Part shown: piece by piece, positions 8,815 to 21,647 of the stretch
Layout: the number at the start of each line of letters is the position of its first letter
How positions within the stretch are numbered: the stretch's first letter is position 1
Source of the DNA: Actinomycetota bacterium
GTDB taxonomy: Bacteria; Actinomycetota; Acidimicrobiia; Acidimicrobiales; Acidimicrobilacustridaceae
Assembly (NCBI GenBank): GCA_009705225.1
Contig: WLCQ01000003.1
Span: 1-44,310, forward strand
DNA length: 44,310 bases
Direction of reading: 5' to 3'
Program-made: the position numbers and the translations under genes
The notes under the pieces: model-generated
Database searches by the model: none
What the model was told of the DNA's origin: nothing
The model's input: only the letters and a program-made list of their open reading frames with translations

Positions 8815-8856
8815 ACGTCACCTTCCGTTCACCTGAATGACAGACGTTCACCAACT
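8815..8856 (+). promoter_or_regulatory. Candidate PHO-box-like direct repeats upstream of pstC
   Basis: acGTCACCTtc (8815) and cgTTCACCTga (8826) are exactly 11 nt apart; a further GTTCACC at 8846. Confidence 0.5.
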
Positions 8857-8940
8857 GTTGGCTAAGGGTTGGTTGCCAGAGGCGGTGGGTTCCCGTTCAC
8901 TTGGCTCATCCGGTCGCTGCGGTCCCCGTGGTCGCGCCCG

Positions 8941-9999
8941 ATGCCCTCTTCCTTCCCCTCTGGAGAACCCCCACCCGTGTCCGGAATCGATCTCGAAGAT
9001 CCCCCGACGTCTCCGTCGCCGATGCCCGGCTCCACCCGTACCAAGCGGGTGGTCACCGAGGTGCCCAGCGTTGTTGACAAACGCTTCAACGCCATCACCA
9101 TGGGTGCGGGCATTTCGGTGCTCGTGTTGCTCCTGCTGGTCGGTGCGTTCCTGTTCATCCAGAGCTCCAATGCGATCTCCGAGACCGGAGTCCTTCGGTT
9201 CCTGACCCGCACCGAATGGCGCACTGATGTGCAACCCCCAGCCATCGGCGTCATGGGACTACTCACCGGCACGGTGCTGGTTGCATTCGTCGCTGTGCTC
9301 TTCGCAGTGCCGCTCAGTGTGTTCTGTGCACTTGCCATCACGGAATACTCCACCGCTCGTCGGCGCAAGTGGCTCATCGGTGTTGTCGATCTGCTCGCTG
9401 CGGTGCCGAGTCTGCTGTTCGGCCTCTGGGGTTTCCTGTTCCTATCGGACAAGATGATTCCGATCTCGACCTGGCTCACCCAGAACCTCGGATTCATCCC
9501 CATCTTCAGCACGGAGCAGAACGCAAGCCTCACCGGTTCGATTTTCATCGCCGGTGTGGTGGTGGCCCTTATGGTGCTGCCGATCATCACCTCGGTCACC
9601 CGCGAGGTCTTCTCCCAGACCCCGCCGGGGGAGAAGGAGGCTGCCCTCGCCCTCGGCGGTACCCGCTGGGGCATGATCCGCGCTGTGGTTCTGCCCTATG
9701 GCCGCGGCGGCATCATCGGCGGCTCGATGCTCGGTCTGGGTCGTGCGCTCGGTGAGACCATCGCTGTGGCACTGCTGCTGCCGCAGGTGCCGCAGCAGAT
9801 CGGTGAGAGCATCCACATCCTGCAGAACGGTGGTGCAACAGTTTCGGGTTTCATCGCCAACCGTGCAGGAGCAGACGCGTTCACGACCTCGGGTCTCATG
9901 GCTGCCGGTCTCGTGCTGTTCATCATCACCCTGGCCACCAACATGATCGCTTCGGTGGTTGTGTCGAAGAGCCGTTCGGGTGCGGGGGTCGACCTGTGA
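8941..9999 (+). CDS. pstC: Phosphate ABC transporter permease PstC
   Basis: PstC-type permease: LLAAVPSLLFGLWGFLFL, REVFSQTPPGEKEAALALGGTRWGMIRAVVLPYGRGGIIGGSMLGLGRALGETIAVALLL. ATG 8941 preferred; GTG near 8977 is possible. Confidence 0.93.
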   Translation: MPSSFPSGEPPPVSGIDLEDPPTSPSPMPGSTRTKRVVTEVPSVVDKRFNAITMGAGISVLVLLLLVGAFLFIQSSNAISETGVLRFLTRTEWRTDVQPPAIGVMGLLTGTVLVAFVAVLFAVPLSVFCALAITEYSTARRRKWLIGVVDLLAAVPSLLFGLWGFLFLSDKMIPISTWLTQNLGFIPIFSTEQNASLTGSIFIAGVVVALMVLPIITSVTREVFSQTPPGEKEAALALGGTRWGMIRAVVLPYGRGGIIGGSMLGLGRALGETIAVALLLPQVPQQIGESIHILQNGGATVSGFIANRAGADAFTTSGLMAAGLVLFIITLATNMIASVVVSKSRSGAGVDL

Positions 10000-11264
10000 G
10001 CACGGAAACCCTTTCCCCCGGTTCATCGGCTTCCAGTTCGTCGACCTCGAACGCCTCCCGTCCCACCCCACAGCGTCGGGCCCGTCGACCCCGCGAGTTC
10101 ACCAACTTCGACGTCTGGGTGCTGGTGGGTTCGATCATCAGCGCCTTGTGTCTCAACTGGCTGATCTTCTACCGCCTTACCGCCGGCGCCAGCCTGTTCG
10201 GTTTCCTGCTGTGTTCGTATTTCACGTTCCTCGCCATTTTCGGCGTCGTCACCGCCGATCGGATGGGTCGACTCGTCGCCACCGACAGGGTGATGACTGT
10301 GGTCGTCGTGAGTGCGGCGGCAATTGTGTTCGTGCCGCTCGTGCTGCTCATCGGGTACATCCTGCTCGAGGGCCTCAAGGCGCTCCGACCGAACTTCTTC
10401 ATCAGTGATCAGGAGGGCATCACCCCCGTGTTGCCCTCCACGTCAGGTGGTGCCTCACACGCCATCGTCGGTTCGATCGAGCAGGTCGGCCTCGCCCTGC
10501 TCTGGTCGTTGCCGCTTGCACTCGCAGCGGCAGTGTTCCTGAACGAGTCACGCAGCAAGTGGCGCCGGCCCGTGCGGATCTTCGTGGATGCCATGAGCGG
10601 ACTTCCGTCCATCGTCGCCGGTCTGTTCATCTTCGCCACGCTCATCCTGCCATTCGCCAAGAGCGGTAATCCGCTGTTCGGGTACAACGGCTTCATGGCC
10701 TCGTTGGCGCTTGCCATCACGATGCTTCCCACCATCACCCGCACTGTCGATGTGGTGCTACGTCTCGTTCCCGATGGTCTGCGTGAGGCATCGCTGGCCC
10801 TGGGCGCATCACGAGCCCGCACCGTCTTCTCCGTGGTGTTCCCCACCGCTCGAACCGGAATGACCACTGCGGTCGTGCTCGGTATTGCCCGTGCGGTGGG
10901 TGAGACCGCTCCGCTGCTGTTCACGGCCTTCGGCTACGACCTCATGAACTCAAACCCGTTCGCTGGTTCGCAGGAGAGCTTGCCGCTTTTTGTGTACCGC
11001 AACATTCGCAAGCCCGATATCGCGGCCATTGAGCGCGGTTTCGCCGGTGCCCTCGTGCTGCTGTTGCTCGTGGTTGCGCTGTTCGCGCTTGCCCGATTCA
11101 TCGGCCGCGATCGTTCGAAGCGTCGCGGTGCGCCCAAGGGTGGCGGTGCCGCAGTGCGGACGAATCCCGATGATCCCTTCAACTCCCCAACCAGCCCGAG
11201 CACCTCAGCAGATGCTGATGCGACGGCAACGGGGCAATCCGTCCAGGAGCCGATGACCTCATGA
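9996..11264 (+). CDS. pstA: Phosphate ABC transporter permease PstA
   Basis: [71 protein letters not shown]; 4-nt overlap with pstC. Confidence 0.93.
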
Positions 11265-12136
11265 CTGCAATCGCCGAAAGGGCAAACCCCATGTCGCAAA
11301 ATTCCACGCTGGTCACAGAACGACCTGCCATCGGTCGCGCCACCATCATCGGCGGCCCGCCCCCGGGTGCGGCAACGCTTGAGGCCCGCGGTGCCTGCGC
11401 ATGGTTCGGCGACCGTCTCGTGCTCGAAGGCGTCGATCTCGTGATGCCCGCAGGTCAGGTCACCGCACTCATCGGCCCATCGGGCTGCGGCAAGTCCACC
11501 TTCCTGCGTCTGCTCAACCGCATGCATGAACTCATCCCCGGCGCGGCACTCGACGGTGAGATCTTCCTCGACGGAACTGATATCTACGCCACCGGAACCC
11601 GGGCCCAGCAGGTGCGTATGCGCATCGGCATGGTCTTCCAGAAGCCGAACCCGTTCCCGGCGATGAGCATCCGCGAGAACGTGCTCGCCGGTCTCAAGCT
11701 TGCCCGCCTCAAGTGCGATGAGAAGGACGATCTCGTCGAGCAGTCACTCCTGCGCGCCGGCCTCTGGAAAGAGGTTCGTGACCGTCTTGACAGTGCCGGT
11801 GGTGCCCTGTCCGGCGGTCAGCAGCAGCGTCTGTGTATCGCTCGTTCGCTCGCTGTGCAGCCCAATGTGCTGCTGATGGATGAGCCTTGTTCAGCGCTCG
11901 ATCCCACCTCGACCCGTCGTGTCGAGGAGACCATCGACGAACTGCGTGGTGAGGTCACCGTTGTGATCGTCACCCACAACATGCAGCAGGCCAACCGCGT
12001 CTCGGATACCTGTGCGTTCTTCCTTGCGGCAGAGAACCAGCCCGGCGTTGTGGTCGAGCAGGGTCCGACCCGCAAGATGTTCGAGAACCCCGACGATCCC
12101 CGCACGCTCGACTACGTCGAAGGCCGCTTCGGCTGA
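11261..12136 (+). CDS. pstB: Phosphate ABC transporter ATP-binding protein PstB
   Basis: Walker [28 protein letters not shown], signature [16 protein letters not shown], Walker [14 protein letters not shown]. Confidence 0.97.
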
Positions 12137-13653
12137 TGTCTCGCTCACGACGCCGCTCCAGTTTCCAGCGAATCGTCGGTGCATTCGTTGCGTTCGTTGT
12201 TGCTGCTCTGGCTGCTGTCGGTGTGGCGCCATCCGCAAGCGCGGCACCGGCACGCATCAATGGTCAGGGCTCGTCCTATGTGGCGCTCGCCATGCAGCAG
12301 TGGGTGGCCGACGCCCAGACCTCGGGCCTGCAGGTCAACTATCTACCCACCGGTTCGCCGGGTGGTCTCACATCCTTCGGTCAGTCGCTCGCCGACTTCG
12401 CCGGCACCGAAGCTGAGTTCAGCGCTCTCTCCACACAGGGGATCGGTGACACTCGTGGCTATCAGTACGTGCCGTCGGTCGCCGGCGCTGTTGCCGTTAT
12501 GTACAACGTGCAGGATGCAGCGGGTCGCAAGGTGGACTACCTGCATCTGAGCCGCCGAACCATCGCCCGGATCTTCACCGGTGACATCACCACATGGAGC
12601 GACCCCGCGATCACCTCTGACAACAAGGGATTGGTACTTCCGAACCAGCCCATCAACGTCGTGTACCGCGGTGGCCAATCGGGAACAACGGGTCTGTTCT
12701 ATGACTTCGTGGCCAATGTCGCCCCTGATGTGTTCGGCCCGTGGGCAGCGCGCAACAGCTTCCCCACAGCGGTTCGAATCATCCAGCTGGACAGCTCCCC
12801 GAGCTTCGTGCCGAAGTCCCAGGCATTCCAAGGTTCCGACCAGATTGCCCAGTTCGTCGGCAGTGGACAGGGCCTGTGGAGTATCGGGTACGACGAGTTC
12901 GGCTATGCCAAGACCTACGACGTCCCCGCAGCTTGGGTCGAGAACGCGGCTGGCGAGTCGGTGCTGCCGTATGCAGAGAACATCTCAGCGGCCCTCGAGA
13001 CGGCCACGCTGCGACCCGATCTCTCGCAGGAACTCTCTGGTGTGTACAACTCCACCAACCCGATCGCCTATCCGATTTCGGCATACAGCTACATCGTGAC
13101 CCAGTGTGCCGAGTCCGCTGATCGACCGACCTGTCGGGGGGCCTACCCGAACGCAGGAATCACCGAGACGCTCACCAAGTGGCTCCGCTACATCGCGTGC
13201 GAGGGACAGGTGAACATGGCCCGGATCGGTTATTCGCCGCTTCCCCCGAACCTCTCGCAGGAGGTGGCCAACTCGATTGCTCGGTTGACCGGTCAGGCCC
13301 CGGAGCAACTGACCCAGGCCAACTGTGCGAACCCCAGGTTCGGTGGTTCTGTTGGCGACGGAGGAACCCCACCTGTCGATCCGATCAAGAACGTCGATGT
13401 CATCGGTGGTGAAAATGCCGTAGGTTCGGAGTTCGACGCCGCCGGTGGTGCAACCACCGGCAACGGCGGAACGACCTCGAGTGGTGGTGGCAGTACCGAC
13501 TGGCGCCGGGCAACTCCGGTCGCCTACGTCGGGCCGTCAATTGCGTCATCGAACGGCATTGCCGTTCTCTTTCTCCTGCTCGTGATGGCTGTCCCGGTCA
13601 TCGTGGGCGCAGTTCTCGCCCGCCGTCGACGGAGTGATTCCTCGCTCGGGTGA
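12136..13653 (+). CDS. pstS: PstS-type phosphate-binding protein with C-terminal transmembrane anchor
   Basis: INGQGSSYVALAMQQW, RIFTGDITTWSDPAI, VVYRGGQSGTTGLFYDFV, GYSPLPPNL. Signal peptide without lipobox. C-terminal TM followed by RRRR. Start overlaps the pstB stop (TGATG). Confidence 0.92.
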   Translation: MSRSRRRSSFQRIVGAFVAFVVAALAAVGVAPSASAAPARINGQGSSYVALAMQQWVADAQTSGLQVNYLPTGSPGGLTSFGQSLADFAGTEAEFSALSTQGIGDTRGYQYVPSVAGAVAVMYNVQDAAGRKVDYLHLSRRTIARIFTGDITTWSDPAITSDNKGLVLPNQPINVVYRGGQSGTTGLFYDFVANVAPDVFGPWAARNSFPTAVRIIQLDSSPSFVPKSQAFQGSDQIAQFVGSGQGLWSIGYDEFGYAKTYDVPAAWVENAAGESVLPYAENISAALETATLRPDLSQELSGVYNSTNPIAYPISAYSYIVTQCAESADRPTCRGAYPNAGITETLTKWLRYIACEGQVNMARIGYSPLPPNLSQEVANSIARLTGQAPEQLTQANCANPRFGGSVGDGGTPPVDPIKNVDVIGGENAVGSEFDAAGGATTGNGGTTSSGGGSTDWRRATPVAYVGPSIASSNGIAVLFLLLVMAVPVIVGAVLARRRRSDSSLG

Positions 13654-13693: not shown

Positions 13694-13738
13694 CTTCACC
13701 TTGTGTTCCATCAGCCTCGGTCGATGGTTCACCTTGAC
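13694..13738 (+). promoter_or_regulatory. Second candidate PHO-box-like array, upstream of the second phosphate-binding-type gene
   Basis: TTCACCTTG at 13695 and again at 13728, 33 nt (3x11) apart; GTTCCATC lies in the 11-nt phase between them. Confidence 0.45.
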
Positions 13739-13831
13739 CCTAGATACTTCTCACTGCCGTGCCCCAACTTCGAGCACGGCGTCGACACCACCCAGCAGTC
13801 CACCTCTCCCCTTTTCGAAAGGACCAAAGCT

Positions 13832-15202
13832 GTGAAGAGTTCTCTTCTCAAGCGCAGTCTCATCGCCGGTGCAGTGGTTGCCACTTCCGTGGCCACTTTC
13901 ATCCCGACGATCTCCGCTGCGTCAGCCGCAACAGTCATTGCCGTCGCCGGCTCCGACACGACCGAAAACGTCATGAAGTCGATCATGGAGCAGGTCAGCA
14001 CCGTCGACGTGCCCACCTATAACGTTCCGGTGTACTCGTTGAACCCGTTCACTGTTCCCGCCGACGACTTCTGCCCCTCGGTGGTCTACTCCCCGCAGGG
14101 CACGACCGGGCTCACTGCTCCCAACCAGGTCGCCCCGAATGGTTCCGGCGCCGGCCGTAACGCACTCCGCGATTTCGTTGCGAGTAGCAAGCGCTACACC
14201 GCTGGCGCCGAAGTGCTCAGCAGCTCGGTTGAGGCCTATGCAGTAGCAACTCCGGTGAAGGGCTGCATTGATATCGCCCGCTCGTCGGCCTACAGCTCAG
14301 GCTCGCCCGCTGCCACCAAGGGCCAGTTCTACGCCTTTGCCCTTGACGCCGTGAGTTGGGCGTCCCCCAGCTCGAAGGCTCCGTCCACGCTTTCCATCAG
14401 CGACCTGCAGAAGATCTACAACTGCACCTACACCAACTGGAACCAGGTTCCGGGTGGTTCGGATGGGCAGATCCAGCGCTACCTCCCGCAGGCTGCTTCC
14501 GGTACCCGCGCCTACTTCCTCAGTGATGTGCTGATGGGAGCGGTCACCGACTTCACCGCCAAGACCAACTGCCCGGCAGTCAAGATCCTTGACAAGAACG
14601 GCCTCGAATTCGAGGAGAATCGGGGCGACAGGATCCCCGATGCGGACCTCGAGACTGCGATCCTTCCGTACTCGGCCGGCCAGTGGGCCTATCAGGCCAA
14701 CAACGCCGCCAACCCCTCGATCGACCAGCGCAAGTCATCCACTGGTGTCGTGACCGCCATCAAGGGGATCAACAACTCCGCCTTCGGCAAGACCGGTTCC
14801 GGAGACAACGTGCTGAACAACACCGGTCACGTTGCCTACAACGACATCGATGGCCGCTACCAGCTCAATGATTCTGGCTGGGCCAACGTTGACACCACCG
14901 CTGATGCGGCTGGCTACCCGATCACCGACAGCAACACCGTGCAGGAGTCGGGCAAGTCAAAGACAGCCGTCGATTTCCCGGGTGTACGTCTTGTCTACAA
15001 CGTGCTCCACACCGATTCCCCGAGCTACAGCACCGCCCGCGACCTCGTCGGCTTCAACAACATCGATAGCGGCGCTAAGAGCACCCTTTGCAGCGGTGGT
15101 TTCAAAACCACCATCTCGACCTTCGGGTTCTCACCGCTCACCTCAACAGCGAACGGTGCTTCGAATCTCGCCGGTTCCAGCTGCCGTCGCTACCTGGCCT
15201 AA
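13832..15202 (+). CDS. PstS-like secreted substrate-binding protein
   Basis: GTG start followed by signal peptide VKSSLLKRSLIAGAVVATSVATFIPTISAASA. PBP motifs VAGSDTTENVM, CIDIARSSAYSS, PQAASGTRAYFLS. The longer ORF start at 13703 lacks a plausible N-terminus. Confidence 0.82.
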   Translation: MKSSLLKRSLIAGAVVATSVATFIPTISAASAATVIAVAGSDTTENVMKSIMEQVSTVDVPTYNVPVYSLNPFTVPADDFCPSVVYSPQGTTGLTAPNQVAPNGSGAGRNALRDFVASSKRYTAGAEVLSSSVEAYAVATPVKGCIDIARSSAYSSGSPAATKGQFYAFALDAVSWASPSSKAPSTLSISDLQKIYNCTYTNWNQVPGGSDGQIQRYLPQAASGTRAYFLSDVLMGAVTDFTAKTNCPAVKILDKNGLEFEENRGDRIPDADLETAILPYSAGQWAYQANNAANPSIDQRKSSTGVVTAIKGINNSAFGKTGSGDNVLNNTGHVAYNDIDGRYQLNDSGWANVDTTADAAGYPITDSNTVQESGKSKTAVDFPGVRLVYNVLHTDSPSYSTARDLVGFNNIDSGAKSTLCSGGFKTTISTFGFSPLTSTANGASNLAGSSCRRYLA

Positions 15203-15274: not shown

Positions 15275-15946
15275 TTGATGACCTCGAATTCCTCATGGCT
15301 CGAACCCAAGGTTTTGGTTCCGTCCGGTGTCGCAGTCGTGGCAGTGGCGCTTCTCATCCTGGTTCTTGTCTTCGGGGGTAACTCGGGCGACTCGGCTGGG
15401 AGCGCCTCTTCAGTCAGCTCGACCTCATCCCCAGTCGTCGACTCGGTAACGGATCCGGTGAGCGGTGCCTCAGGTCCGGTGGAACCCGGCGCGGTGCCTG
15501 CATCGGTTCCGTCGGGTCCGTACACCACGCCGACGATGCCGGTACAGGTGGACGCTCCTCCGGTTGATGGAGCGGTGGATGGCGAGGCCATCACGGTTCA
15601 TGGGAGTCCGGAGCCCGGGTCGAAGCTGTACGGGGTTGAAGCGAGACTCTGCCGGGGAGATGTGGCAGTCGTCGATGACGGCATGTTCACCCCCACCCTC
15701 GGTGGAGTCTGTATCGCCAAGCCCCTTTCCGAGATTTCGGATTCGAAGGTTGCCGTCGTAGGGACCGAGCCGTTCGAAGGCCTGGACATCACGTTCAGGG
15801 TCGGTGTCGGTTCCACCACGTTCAAGACCCAGTACGACGGTCCTTCGACCATCACATGCGGGCCGAGCTCGCCATGTCAGATCGTTCTCAAACTGCAGTA
15901 TCCGAAGGGATTCGGCTTCAAGGGAATCCCTGTCACCTACCGGTGA
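15275..15946 (+). CDS. Membrane-anchored extracytoplasmic protein with one neocarzinostatin-like module
   Basis: N-terminal TM (VLVPSGVAVVAVALLILVLVFGG), Ser/Pro linker, then LYGVEARLCRG...FTPTLGGVC...VGVGSTTFKTQYDGPSTITCGPSSPCQIVLKL. Confidence 0.75.
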   Translation: MMTSNSSWLEPKVLVPSGVAVVAVALLILVLVFGGNSGDSAGSASSVSSTSSPVVDSVTDPVSGASGPVEPGAVPASVPSGPYTTPTMPVQVDAPPVDGAVDGEAITVHGSPEPGSKLYGVEARLCRGDVAVVDDGMFTPTLGGVCIAKPLSEISDSKVAVVGTEPFEGLDITFRVGVGSTTFKTQYDGPSTITCGPSSPCQIVLKLQYPKGFGFKGIPVTYR

Positions 15947-16098: not shown

Positions 16099-18531
16099 AT
16101 GATTCGCTCCTTCCGATCCCGCCTTGTGGCGGTGTCAACGGGGGTGCTGCTCACCGCAGCAACTCTCGGGACACTCGCCCCAGTGGCCCAAGCGGAGACT
16201 GTGTCGGGCAATGTGCCGGCCACGATCACTGCCTCACCGACGACCGGGCTCGTCTCGGGCTCCACCGTCACGGTCTCAGCCACCGCCGACCTCAACTGGA
16301 ACATCTATTCGCTGCGGGCTCGCCTGTGTAAGAGCTCGGCGATGATCGACAATGCAGGTGACTTCTCGCCCACGCTTGGCGGCAACTGCATCTCCGGCCC
16401 GTTGGCTGCGAACACCGACAGCGACGTCACCGTGAATACATCTGTCGGAGCTCGTAGCTCGGCGACGCTGGACTTCAATGTTGGCGCCGGGTCCACGACG
16501 TTTGCCACGCAATACGACGGCAACACGACCATTGCTTGCGGTGTCACCTCGACCACAGGTTGCAAGCTCGTCGTTGAAATGTCGGCGAATAACCTCAGTG
16601 GCCGCGTGATCTACAAGTCGTTCCCGCTCACCTACGCCCTGCCGAACGCCCCCACCGGCGTATCAGCAGTTTGGGGTAACGCCAAGGCTGTCGTTTCCTG
16701 GACCGCTTCCGCTGCCCAGACCGGTCTGCCGGCGGTGACCTCCTACACCGTGACTTCCTCGCCCGGTGGCTTCACCTGCACGACGGCGAGCACCAGCTGC
16801 GAGGTTTCGGGACTCACGAACGGAACGCCCTATACCTTCAGCGTGACCGGAACGAGCACTCTCGGTACCTCCGCTGATTCCACTGCCACCTCAGCTGTCA
16901 CGCCCTCGAGCTCGGCCTACGTTGTCTCGTCGACACCGACGGCCGGTCTCTCCTCGGGAACCACTGTCGCCCAGACGGTCACCATGAGCACCGGGCAGAA
17001 CCTCTATTCGGTGCGCACCCGTCTCTGTAAGGCCTCGGCCACCATCAGCAACGCCGGTGATTTCTCGCCGACGCTCGGGGGCAACTGTGTCTCCACGCCG
17101 CTTGCCAGCAACACCGACAGCGACGTCACTGTGACCACATCAGCCGGCAGTCGTGGTTCGGCCTCGCTGAGCTTCAAGGTCGGCGCCGGCACGAAGACGT
17201 TTGCCACCCAGTACGACGGCAACTCCACCATCGCCTGCGGCACCACATTCGCCAATCGTGAATCCTGCAAGCTCGTGACGGAGATCAGCTACACCACCGC
17301 CCTTGGCGTCGCGCGTGTGGTTTACGAGAGCACGGCGATCGCCTTTGCGACGGTTCCCGCCGCCCCTGGTGCTCCCACCGTGGCCATCGGCGCCACTGGT
17401 GGCTCGGCAACTGCATCCTGGACCGCTCCCGCCACTGGTGGCTCAGCGATCACGGGCTATCAGGTGACCGCCACTGGCGGCGTGAGCCCCATTGTCTTCA
17501 CCGTCGGCGCTTCGACACTGTCCCAGGCGTTCGCCGGCTTGTCGAAGACCACCACCTACACATTCACGGTGAAGGCAGTGAACGGCGTGGGTTCCAGCCT
17601 CGCCTCTGCCGGTACCTCGAAGCTCGCTGCCGCTGTTCCGGCAAAGCCGGCAACGATCACGGTGGGCTCGACCGGCAACGGATCCATCACTGTGAACTAC
17701 ACAGCCCCGGCCACCACCGTGCCTGGCGCCCCCGTGACCGGCTACTTGGTGCAGGCGTTTGCCCCCCTTGCCACTACTGCGGCCGACACCTGCAACAACG
17801 GTGACAGCATCTTGACCTGCACGCTCACCGGGCTCACGAACGGCGTGAAGTACGAGATCCGGGTCTCCGCGAAGAACGTGGTCGGCACCGGCGTCAGCTA
17901 CAACAAGGTCAAGAACGTGATCCCCGCCACGACACCGGGCAAGCCGTCGATCACGACGGTCACTGGTGGCAATGGTCAGGTCACCGTGGCCTGGTCGGCA
18001 CCGCTTTCCAACGGCGGCTCGGCAGTCACCGGGTACACGGTTCAGGCCTTCAACGCCGCTGGCACCGACGCCATCGACGGCAAGACCTGCACGCCAACCG
18101 CCGCGACCGGCACCAACTGCATCGTCGCCGGCCTCACCAATGGCACCGCCTACACGTTCAAGGTGACTGCGGCGAACGCCAAGGGCAGCGGTTCGGCCTC
18201 TGATGCTTCGGCAGCAGCGACTCCGGCAACGGTACCTTCGGCTCCGGGCTCCCCGCAGGCCACCGCCAACTCCCTCAAGTCCGTCACGATCAGCTGGAGC
18301 GCCCCGAGCAGCAACGGCTCGGCGATTACCGGCTACACCGTGCAGGCCTACACATGGAACGGCAGCGTCGCCACCATCGTGACGCCGAAGAAGTGCACCA
18401 CCACCTCCGCCACGACCTGCAATATCGGGGGTCTTGTCGCTGGAACCCAGTACAAGTTCAACATCACTGCTACCAACGCCAAGGGGACCAGCTCCGCTGC
18501 GACCACTGCGGCTGTGACTGCGAAGAACTAA
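16099..18531 (+). CDS. Large secreted surface protein: two neocarzinostatin-like modules and five FnIII domains
   Basis: ATG 16099 with signal peptide MIRSFRSRLVAVSTGVLLTAATLGTLAPVAQAE. Modules at about 16210-16641 and 16915-17355; FnIII repeats (ITGYxVQA..., LTNGTxYTFxVTAxNxxGxS) elsewhere. Start downstream of ORF-track start 15856, which overlaps the previous gene. Confidence 0.85.
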   Translation: MIRSFRSRLVAVSTGVLLTAATLGTLAPVAQAETVSGNVPATITASPTTGLVSGSTVTVSATADLNWNIYSLRARLCKSSAMIDNAGDFSPTLGGNCISGPLAANTDSDVTVNTSVGARSSATLDFNVGAGSTTFATQYDGNTTIACGVTSTTGCKLVVEMSANNLSGRVIYKSFPLTYALPNAPTGVSAVWGNAKAVVSWTASAAQTGLPAVTSYTVTSSPGGFTCTTASTSCEVSGLTNGTPYTFSVTGTSTLGTSADSTATSAVTPSSSAYVVSSTPTAGLSSGTTVAQTVTMSTGQNLYSVRTRLCKASATISNAGDFSPTLGGNCVSTPLASNTDSDVTVTTSAGSRGSASLSFKVGAGTKTFATQYDGNSTIACGTTFANRESCKLVTEISYTTALGVARVVYESTAIAFATVPAAPGAPTVAIGATGGSATASWTAPATGGSAITGYQVTATGGVSPIVFTVGASTLSQAFAGLSKTTTYTFTVKAVNGVGSSLASAGTSKLAAAVPAKPATITVGSTGNGSITVNYTAPATTVPGAPVTGYLVQAFAPLATTAADTCNNGDSILTCTLTGLTNGVKYEIRVSAKNVVGTGVSYNKVKNVIPATTPGKPSITTVTGGNGQVTVAWSAPLSNGGSAVTGYTVQAFNAAGTDAIDGKTCTPTAATGTNCIVAGLTNGTAYTFKVTAANAKGSGSASDASAAATPATVPSAPGSPQATANSLKSVTISWSAPSSNGSAITGYTVQAYTWNGSVATIVTPKKCTTTSATTCNIGGLVAGTQYKFNITATNAKGTSSAATTAAVTAKN

Positions 18532-18537
18532 AGGAAA

Positions 18538-20616
18538 TTGATGAAACACCGCTCCCTCAAACGAGCGCTCGCAGTGGTGAGTGTCGCAGCTATGGCTGCG
18601 GCACTCACCGCGTTCGGCGTGGCAACTCCTTCCGAAGCTTTGGAATCGGCAACGGCCCCCTGGACCGTGTCGGTGACGCCGAACACCAGCATCACCGATG
18701 GGCAGCTCGTGTCAATCAATCTCCAGACCACGACTGCCCATCGCATCTATGAAGCGAATGCCCAGATCTGCAGACTCGGCGTTGACTACCAGCCGAGTGA
18801 CGGCGATCGTCCGGCGAAGGATTTCGACGCTGGGGATCTCAACTGCCCGGCAATTCCGATCTCATCGAGCTCCGATGTGCAGACCGGCGATGCCAACCTT
18901 TACGGACCGGCCACCCAGCCGGGAGGTTCATCGTTCTCGATGTACGTCGGTAGCGGAGTTGTGGAGTGGCCGGCCGTTTCGACCGGTCGAGCGCAGCGTC
19001 TGACCTGCGACTTCGAGAATCCCTGTGCCCTCGTGGTGGAGGTGTACGGGTCAGTCGCTCCCGGTGTCGCCCGGTGGATCCCGTATGTTCAGACGCTGTC
19101 GTACCGGGTCGACGACCCGGTGGCCGGCTGCGGCGGTCCCGCTGACGGGGTGCTGAACACCGCGGCACCAGAGCGGGTCACTGATCTGTGGATCAACTGG
19201 ACCCTCGATCAGTGCCGCCTCCCCGGCGCGCAGGCAGGCGCAGTATCGCGAACCAGTTTCTCTGATGAGTCCGATGCCATGAATGGATTTTCGAGTGGTG
19301 CACTCGATGTCGGCTACAGCGCAGTCGGTTATGACGCCGGACCTGCGCTCGGTCGAGGATCGCGAACCGAACCCCTCGAAGCCCGACCGTCGACAGCCGT
19401 GCCACTCGCAGTGAACGCCACCGTCGTGGCCGTGGGTAACGGTCGGCGCGGCCCGAACAGCCGAAAGATCCCGTTCACCGATGTACGTGTGACTCGCAGT
19501 CAGCTCGCCCGGATGTTCACCGGGGGTCCTCTCGAGTTCCTCGAATATGAGCGGCAGTCGTTTGCCGATCTCAACCCTCAGTTCGACGAGGCCAGCGTGT
19601 TCATCTCTGCGTCGATTCAGGTTGGTGCGTTCGCTCCCGCAGACGCGTCGTCCTGGTTCCTCACCAGCTTCCTGAAGGAAACGCAACCCGACGAATGGAA
19701 GGTTCCGGACACGAATAAATTCGGGCCCGAACGTGGCCTTACCCGAGGATCCTCAATCGCCTTCGGCATCGCAAACCCCTCGTTCAACGGTGCTGTGGAC
19801 ATGTTCACCGGAAACTCAGTACTCGTGAAGACCCTGCGGAGCCAGAACACCAATGACTTCGGTGGCATCTGGGTGCTCACCGATCTTGCAACTGCAAATC
19901 ATCTCGGTCTGTCGGTCGCCAGTATCGAGAACGACAATGGGGTTTTCGTTGCTCCCACCCCTGAATCGATGAACGCTGCGGTCGCCACGATGAAGCCCAC
20001 CGATGACGGTCGGCTGATGCCTGATCCGGCTGCATCCGTTGACAAAGATGCTGTGCAGCCCTACCCGCTCACATTCGTGGACTACGCAATCGCTCCCACC
20101 TCGAAGCTTGTCGATTCGACGTGCAAGGGACGTACTGCGTCCCAGGCGTTGCTCGGGACCTGGCTGAATTACGCGGTGAGCGAGGGCCAGAGCAAGCTCC
20201 CTGTTGGATACGCACCTCTCACTGATGACCTTCGAGCCACCGCAAGCGAGGCCATTGCCAAGATCGGTTCGGAGACTCCGGACTGTTTCGTCGAGGGAGA
20301 CCCGTTGCCTGTCCTCGCACCACCGCAGGGCGGCGGATCCGGAGCTGGAGGTGGCGGCGGTATCCGCAATCCCGGAATCAATCCGACAGCCACTGGCGGT
20401 GCTGACTCGCCGAACCCTGCATCTGGAACTGTGAAACCCGAAGTTCTTGCCGCAGAGGTCCCCGAGTTCACAGCACGAACTGCGGCCAGCGCTGCAGCCG
20501 CCTTCGGGGGCATGATCCTCGTGTTCGGGCTCTTGTCGCTGATGGCCATGGCCACGACCGGTCGACTGCCCACGATGAGCTCCCTCCGATCCCGTCTGGG
20601 AGGTCTGGGACGATGA
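18538..20616 (+). CDS. Neocarzinostatin-like module fused to a degenerate PstS-like domain, C-terminal TM anchor
   Basis: N-terminal signal peptide; module VSVTPNTSITDGQLV...CDFENPCALVVEV; PBP-like LARMFTG..., LPVGYAPLTDDLRATASEAIAKI matching the PstS C-terminal lobe; TM near the C-terminus. Confidence 0.78.
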   Translation: MMKHRSLKRALAVVSVAAMAAALTAFGVATPSEALESATAPWTVSVTPNTSITDGQLVSINLQTTTAHRIYEANAQICRLGVDYQPSDGDRPAKDFDAGDLNCPAIPISSSSDVQTGDANLYGPATQPGGSSFSMYVGSGVVEWPAVSTGRAQRLTCDFENPCALVVEVYGSVAPGVARWIPYVQTLSYRVDDPVAGCGGPADGVLNTAAPERVTDLWINWTLDQCRLPGAQAGAVSRTSFSDESDAMNGFSSGALDVGYSAVGYDAGPALGRGSRTEPLEARPSTAVPLAVNATVVAVGNGRRGPNSRKIPFTDVRVTRSQLARMFTGGPLEFLEYERQSFADLNPQFDEASVFISASIQVGAFAPADASSWFLTSFLKETQPDEWKVPDTNKFGPERGLTRGSSIAFGIANPSFNGAVDMFTGNSVLVKTLRSQNTNDFGGIWVLTDLATANHLGLSVASIENDNGVFVAPTPESMNAAVATMKPTDDGRLMPDPAASVDKDAVQPYPLTFVDYAIAPTSKLVDSTCKGRTASQALLGTWLNYAVSEGQSKLPVGYAPLTDDLRATASEAIAKIGSETPDCFVEGDPLPVLAPPQGGGSGAGGGGGIRNPGINPTATGGADSPNPASGTVKPEVLAAEVPEFTARTAASAAAAFGGMILVFGLLSLMAMATTGRLPTMSSLRSRLGGLGR

Positions 20617-21647
20617 CAATCGACGAACAGGTCTCGATGGTCGGTTCCATCGATGTCCTCCCACCCCATCGGGAGTTTGCTCCCAGGCCCGAAGCCACAC
20701 CGATGCATCGACCGGGGGCACCCTCCGGCAAACTCCTGCTCCTGTGGGCCGCTGTGCTCGTGCTCGTGGTCGCAGTAGTTCTCATTGCTGTGGAGCCGAT
20801 GTTCCAACAGCGTGAGCAGGGTTTGCTACTCAGCGACTACCGGTCTTCGATCGACAAGGCGGCCAACCAGGCCACCGGTCTCGGCGGCGTCGAAGTATCG
20901 ACCACCGCGCCTGAGTTCGGTTCGCCCGTGGGCATCATGGAGATCGAGCCAATCGGACTCCAGCAGGTCATTGTCGAAGGTGCTTCGGCTCCGATCATGC
21001 AGAACGGTCCCGGCCATGTGCCCGGCACTGCGGCACCGGGTCAGCCCGGTAACAGCGTTGTCGTTGGTAGGTCGGCGCTGTTCGGCGCACCGTTCGCCGA
21101 CCTCTCGAAACTTGCCGTCGACGACCTCATCGCAGTCACCACCACCCAAGGTCAGGTCGTCTATCGAGTTGCCGAAGCAGCATCGGTGCAGCTGAGCAAT
21201 GCCAAGCCGGAGAGCAAGCCGGCCTTGTCGGGAACTGCTGCTACCCCGGGTGAGTACAAACCGATCCTGGAGTCCGGTCGCATCTCGATCGAGTCGCTCT
21301 ACGGATCGACCACCGACGATCGACTCACGCTCGTCACCTCTGCCAGTGCCTTCCCGCTCAATTCGGCTGAAGCACGTGTGGTCATTGCCGTCATGGCGGG
21401 CAAGCCCTATGCGCCGACGCCGCAGAACGGTCGAACGAACCGCCAGACGGGTACCACCAGCGATACCTCACACTGGCCCTTTGCCCTGCTTGCGGCGCTC
21501 TGCCTCGCTGGGGCGATCGTCGGTGCGGTCCTGCTCTACCGGCGCTCCAGCGCGCGCGTGGCATATCTGCTCACGGTGCCACCGCTCTTGGTGTTTGCGG
21601 TGCTCGCCTCGGAGACACTCAGCCAGCTGCTGCCAGCCTGGTTCTGA
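20613..21647 (+). CDS. Sortase-fold membrane protein, apparently catalytically inactive
   Basis: N-terminal TM; GPGHVPGTAAPGQPGNSVVVGRSALFGAPFADLSKL aligns with sortase GPGHYPGTxxPGxPGNxxxAGHRxxxGxPFxxL. RLTLVTSASA occupies the LTLxTC position. Two C-terminal TM helices. Confidence 0.82.
   Translation: MTIDEQVSMVGSIDVLPPHREFAPRPEATPMHRPGAPSGKLLLLWAAVLVLVVAVVLIAVEPMFQQREQGLLLSDYRSSIDKAANQATGLGGVEVSTTAPEFGSPVGIMEIEPIGLQQVIVEGASAPIMQNGPGHVPGTAAPGQPGNSVVVGRSALFGAPFADLSKLAVDDLIAVTTTQGQVVYRVAEAASVQLSNAKPESKPALSGTAATPGEYKPILESGRISIESLYGSTTDDRLTLVTSASAFPLNSAEARVVIAVMAGKPYAPTPQNGRTNRQTGTTSDTSHWPFALLAALCLAGAIVGAVLLYRRSSARVAYLLTVPPLLVFAVLASETLSQLLPAWF

Follow-up and report, generated by a model that had tools for sequence, protein, structure and literature searches.

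The gene that ends a phosphate-uptake locus in the window (the whole 44,310-nt stretch of contig WLCQ01000003.1 that was analyzed, to which all coordinates here refer) encodes a protein with a sortase fold and without the catalytic residues of a sortase, and we conclude from sequence comparison that it belongs to a real and conserved pseudosortase family of Actinomycetota phosphate-uptake loci. Sortases staple proteins to the cell wall and have been studied as transpeptidases and as drug targets. Because the catalytic residues are lost and yet the family is conserved in phosphate-uptake clusters, the pseudosortase probably holds surface proteins without cutting them. No earlier description of a conserved non-catalytic sortase family, nor of a sortase associated with pst or WxL, was found in the open-access literature, and the word sortase has zero occurrences in a review from 2021 on Streptomyces phosphate transport (PMC7866108).

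Fold and catalytic positions of the window protein

A first-pass annotation of this DNA had described an intact open reading frame with a sortase framework and three transmembrane (TM) helices. The 344-aa frame was uninterrupted, and the framework was borne out both by a match to PF04203 (Sortase) over residues 109-258 (E 1.2e-15; 57.8 bits vs. a curated cut-off of 26.6) and by an AlphaFold model (pLDDT 89, pTM 0.84) built on an alignment of 92 sequences, 76 dead and 16 active, that superseded a poor earlier model on 16 sequences (pLDDT 61.7). In the model, helices 38-59, 61-87, 285-311, and 314-339 surround a beta domain, and all except 61-87 match the three TM helices that had been predicted, for a layout consisting of an N-terminal TM helix, an extracytoplasmic sortase domain (residues ~99-262), and two C-terminal TM helices. 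The best Foldseek matches in the PDB were all sortases, in agreement with the profile search: Clostridium SrtD (4d70) gave a TM-score of 0.82 (target-normalized), the class E structures 5go5/5go6 gave 0.72, and SrtE1 (5cuw) gave 0.66, with class C enzymes matched as well. The possibility that there was no sortase fold at all, which the first-pass annotation had raised against itself, is dismissed by the model scores and these matches. When sortase classes were compared by HMM search, the class E model NF033747 was the best-matching NCBIfam model, with a partial match of 68.4 bits that does not reach its cut-off of 160, and class C and class D family profiles scored the protein lower.

The His-Cys-Arg triad is absent, its places being taken by Arg153, Ser243, and Ala254 (Table 1). 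Replacement of the catalytic His by Arg and of the catalytic Cys by Ser had been read from the sequence at the outset, and alignment placed both residues as proposed. The catalytic Arg had been claimed as retained, and here the reading was off by one: the Arg in question is residue 255 (CGT, 21375-21377), a neighbor of Ala254 on strand beta8, and alignment with active class E sortases assigns the catalytic position to Ala254 and rules out a retained Arg. Among 76 non-redundant relatives the His position is Arg in 75 and Lys in 1, while the Cys position is Ala in 45, Ser in 22, Gly in 4, Thr in 3, Val in 1, and Met in 1, and is Cys in 0/76. The Arg position holds Val (30), Ala (18), Arg (12), or other residues, and Ala254 is invariant across the window's orthologue clade. 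The signature of the family, Arg or Lys at the His position with a residue other than Cys at the Cys position, is therefore found in all 76 relatives and in the window. One family member, L167 (from genome G144), has Lys at the first position and Thr at the second. It had also been considered that a different His/Cys pair might occupy the active site, but the sortase domain of the window protein contains no Cys, so no such pair is possible. That this protein is a pseudoenzyme, a non-catalytic sortase, is well supported by the alignments. The residue following GPGH also departs from active enzymes, being Val136 in the window and Tyr or Phe in 15/16 active class E sequences; in the class E sortase SrtE1, Tyr229 of the beta3/beta4 loop functions in LAXTG recognition (PMC5148588), and the Val136 position may be its equivalent.

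Conservation, distribution, and origin of the family

Orthologues from the same genus share 56-81% identity, are all dead, and have intact frames, and more distant orthologues were found in the family and the order of the window genome. No orthologue keeps His/Cys, and Arg153 and Ser243 are not private to one genome. A private mutation is ruled out by these orthologues together with dN/dS values of 0.10-0.30 for the pseudosortase among same-genus copies (close to the 0.13-0.19 of surf2, the adjacent upstream gene), which are rough because several pairs approach saturation at synonymous sites. A scan of the genomes of 85,462 species yielded 80 named loci, from Streptomyces, Micromonospora, Nocardioides, Cellulomonas, Microbacteriaceae, Propionibacteriaceae, termite Bifidobacteriaceae, Pseudonocardiaceae, Nocardiopsidaceae, and Acidimicrobiia, with Arg at the His position in every one and with pst genes in nearly all of those of sufficient length. 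The 76 non-redundant relatives span at least 12 actinomycete families and include isolates and metagenome-assembled genomes (MAGs). The family is patchy across Actinomycetota, given that a strict DNA pattern, which undercounts, matched 5/397 genomes sampled across the phylum; two newly found pattern-matched members were likewise dead. Genomes G012 and G004, both of which group with the window's genus, are matched by contigs of the public records L049 and L059, respectively; the titles of these records, Acidobacteria bacterium for L049 and Bifidobacterium breve for L059, are therefore probably wrong.

In a tree from which the three catalytic columns were removed and the gappiest rows dropped, a single branch separates the 74 dead from the 25 active rows (bootstrap 100, SH-aLRT 99). 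This topology fits a single ancient loss of catalysis, as seen in a tree that draws its active rows from the class to which the window belongs and that has no independently known root.

The phosphate-uptake locus and its surface proteins

The pseudosortase gene is the last of nine co-directional genes that begin with pstC (Table 1), in accord with the earlier proposal that a sortase-fold gene ends a phosphate-uptake locus. The 4-nt overlap with the upstream surface-protein gene was also found as described, and its ATGA sequence makes translational coupling of the two genes possible. Upstream of pstC, GTTCAC(C) words resemble actinomycete PHO boxes and weakly suggest control by PhoP, weakly because GTTCACC recurs often in other parts of the window. 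The genome's second pst cluster (contig C68) had no sortase homologue within the 20 kb examined.

Table 1. Positions of genes, upstream repeats, and key codons of the pseudosortase locus.
Feature	Position	Strand	Basis or remark
PHO-box-like repeats upstream of pstC	8827..8900	+	GTTCACC at 8827 and 8846; GTTCAC at 8895
pstC, permease	8977..9999	+	orthology
pstA, permease	9996..11264	+	orthology
pstB, phosphate ABC ATPase	11261..12136	+	orthology
surf1, PstS-like (PBP_like_2), C-terminal TM, RRRR tail, degenerate sorting-signal-like PVAYVGPSI	12136..13653	+	
PstS-family protein (PBP_like_2), without C-terminal TM	13724..15202	+	Pfam
Small secreted protein, N-terminal TM, without Pfam family	15278..15946	+	Pfam scan
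Fibronectin type III (FN3) surface protein	16099..18531	+	Pfam; exact start uncertain, with the frame already open further upstream
surf2, 691-aa secreted protein, weak PstS-like C-terminal domain, C-terminal TM, basic tail	18541..20616	+	pre-TM motif VPEF conserved
ATGA overlap of surf2 and pseudosortase genes	20613..20616	+	sequence; possible translational coupling
Pseudosortase gene, 344 aa	20613..21647	+	Pfam, structure model, Foldseek
Val136 codon, after GPGH	21018..21020	+	alignment; Tyr/Phe in 15/16 active class E sequences
Arg153 codon AGG, catalytic His position	21069..21071	+	alignment; Arg in 75/76 relatives, Lys in 1
Ser243 codon TCT, catalytic Cys position	21339..21341	+	alignment of 76 relatives
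Ala254 codon GCA, catalytic Arg position	21372..21374	+	alignment with active class E sortases

Linkage to pst distinguishes most of the dead sortases from the active ones sampled. The pseudosortase gene cluster contains pstC/pstA/pstB in the window and in 65/76 relatives, while pst genes were near 0/19 deduplicated active class E sortases (Fisher p 1e-12), a comparison in which the loci were collected by similarity to dead queries, so that a pst-linked active sortase could exist elsewhere. The active control comprised 20 class E loci belonging to the same taxonomic class, taken with ~9.5 kb of flanking DNA per side, or less where the contig was shorter. The 11 dead loci without pst are mostly cut off by contig ends or by the edges of the DNA examined around them, and in the two that were rechecked pst was just outside. 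The long-branch members L171 and L172 had no pst genes in the DNA examined, and L171 has a PstS-like gene upstream.

In most loci, the gene directly upstream of the pseudosortase specifies a surface protein with a C-terminal membrane anchor. A [LVIM][PA]xTG motif (LPXTG/LAXTG) just before the TM segment was found in 22/56 upstream tails; 1000 shuffles, which served as the baseline, gave 1.0 on average and never more than 6. In the window's clade, surf2 instead has VPEF/LPEF/MPDF-type motifs, located between a variable linker and the TM segment; [LVIMP]Px[FY] occurs there in 9/11 surf2 tails (shuffled mean 0.2), a result deserving less weight because the motif was defined after inspection. The surf1 tails of the window and its relatives have the form PVAY[TVL]GPS-TM-basic, and that of the window, PVAYVGPSIASSN-TM-RRRR (12136-13653), resembles a degenerate LAXTG sorting signal. 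In other loci, a conserved 875-aa C-terminally anchored protein (L042:10765-13389 and L102:3736-6360) has no Pfam family and is similar to the PstS-like proteins of the locus.

Proposed role and comparison with known systems

The reading we favor, with a probability of roughly 0.6, is that the pseudosortase is a non-enzymatic binder or scaffold for the anchored, phosphate-binding-protein-like surface proteins of its locus; a scaffold or peptide-binding role is plausible for a dead sortase fold. The protein would be made together with the pst genes and would be held in the membrane so that its former active-site groove faces outward. The groove would bind, without cleaving, the sorting-signal-like C-terminal tails of surf2, of surf1, or of an LPXTG/LAXTG protein in other lineages, and the bound surface proteins would be held or handed over such that a phosphate-capturing assembly is kept beside PstCAB. 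Any covalent anchoring would be the work of a separate active sortase. The adaptor model is drawn from two facts taken together: the sortase of a sortase-substrate gene pair is dead, and every genome tested still has another sortase. Several observations count against binding of this kind. Two same-genus copies have lost the VPEF motif (MGSF/MGSL), about one quarter of the loci have no clear anchored protein directly upstream, and the surf1 counterparts in genomes G004, G005, and G014 carry VAYTG, a tail that could be a real substrate of an active sortase. Additionally, Val136 and the change at position 254 suggest an altered LAXTG pocket, and therefore the ligand may be something other than a sorting signal. 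The fuller proposal, that a patchy, phylum-wide pseudoenzyme family acts as an adaptor that reads tails uncut and builds a phosphate-capturing surface complex beside PstCAB, is put forward tentatively and at somewhat less than even odds.

Other roles for a dead sortase are conceivable. It could regulate an active class E sortase, pairing with the housekeeping enzyme or competing for its substrates and thereby tuning anchoring at phosphate limitation. Candidate partners for such a role exist: the window genome has one further sortase (contig C176) with the intact triad AGHR / MAC / TRIVV, another sortase gene was present in 30/30 pseudosortase-bearing genomes tested, with a recognizable intact His/Cys/Arg pattern in 28 by motif check, and in many loci the adjacent upstream gene encodes a LAXTG/LPXTG protein. 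However, other sortases are common in the group anyway (125/148 related genomes matched), and the genes that accompany the pseudosortase are pst genes, not those of active sortases, which leads us to regard regulation as unlikely. We give a little less credence to a ligand sensor, in which Arg153 would let the old active site bind an anion (phosphate or a wall polymer) and signal to PstCAB. The uniform presence of Arg or Lys at position 153 looks like a specific replacement and not a random loss, and the content of the locus is phosphate uptake; on the other hand, the 76-relative alignment revealed no second basic residue conserved across all clades; position 137 is Arg in 55/76 relatives but Pro in the window.

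An enzyme with different chemistry, e.g., with Ser243 as nucleophile, would suit the window protein and the 22 relatives with Ser, but the catalytic His is gone throughout the family, and residue 243 cannot be the nucleophile in most members because Ala is the commonest residue there; we consider such an enzyme very improbable. Loss of catalytic residues might also be expected of a decaying gene or an assembly artefact. This explanation is scarcely credible in view of the intact frames and low dN/dS within the genus and because isolates and MAGs of independent origin, from at least 12 families, show identical substitutions. The first-pass annotation had already argued from the intact frame against simple decay, and purifying selection combined with multi-family conservation makes that argument stronger.

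If the binder reading is true, the family would show a wall-anchoring enzyme turned into a binding protein tied to nutrient uptake, and would imply that actinomycetes surround the Pst transporter with elaborate surface machinery. Culturable relatives in Streptomyces, Micromonospora, and Nocardioides carry the family, and the hypothesis is testable there. The findings also call for caution in automatic annotation, where pseudosortase genes should not be read as working sortases.

Among known systems, class E sortases (NF033747; Streptomyces coelicolor SrtE1, PDB 5cuw) are closest by profile and share the fold. They cleave LAXTG and transfer the product to lipid II. The active homologue in the window genome likewise has one N-terminal and two C-terminal hydrophobic segments. 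Unlike class E enzymes, the pseudosortase has no His, Cys, or Arg at the catalytic positions, has Val in place of Tyr/Phe after GPGH, is pst-linked, and falls well below the class E cut-off. Class D (4d70) and class C (4g1j) sortases, the top Foldseek fold matches, are in contrast enzymes with intact triads. With the PstSCAB high-affinity phosphate transporter the locus shares pstC, pstA, pstB, and PstS-like proteins; ordinary pst operons are not known to have a sortase-fold gene. A further likeness is to the WxL/Csc clusters of low-GC Gram-positives, which are not known to include pst genes or a dead sortase. No WxL-domain match was present among the scanned proteins of the window locus, while related pst loci encode WxLIP_PGBD (PF06030), small LPXTG proteins, and, in L102, a protein whose WxL match falls just short of the Pfam cut-off. 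In these other actinomycetes (L102:11912-14772 and L042:2253-3389), a csc-like cell-surface complex is joined to a pst operon with a pseudosortase.
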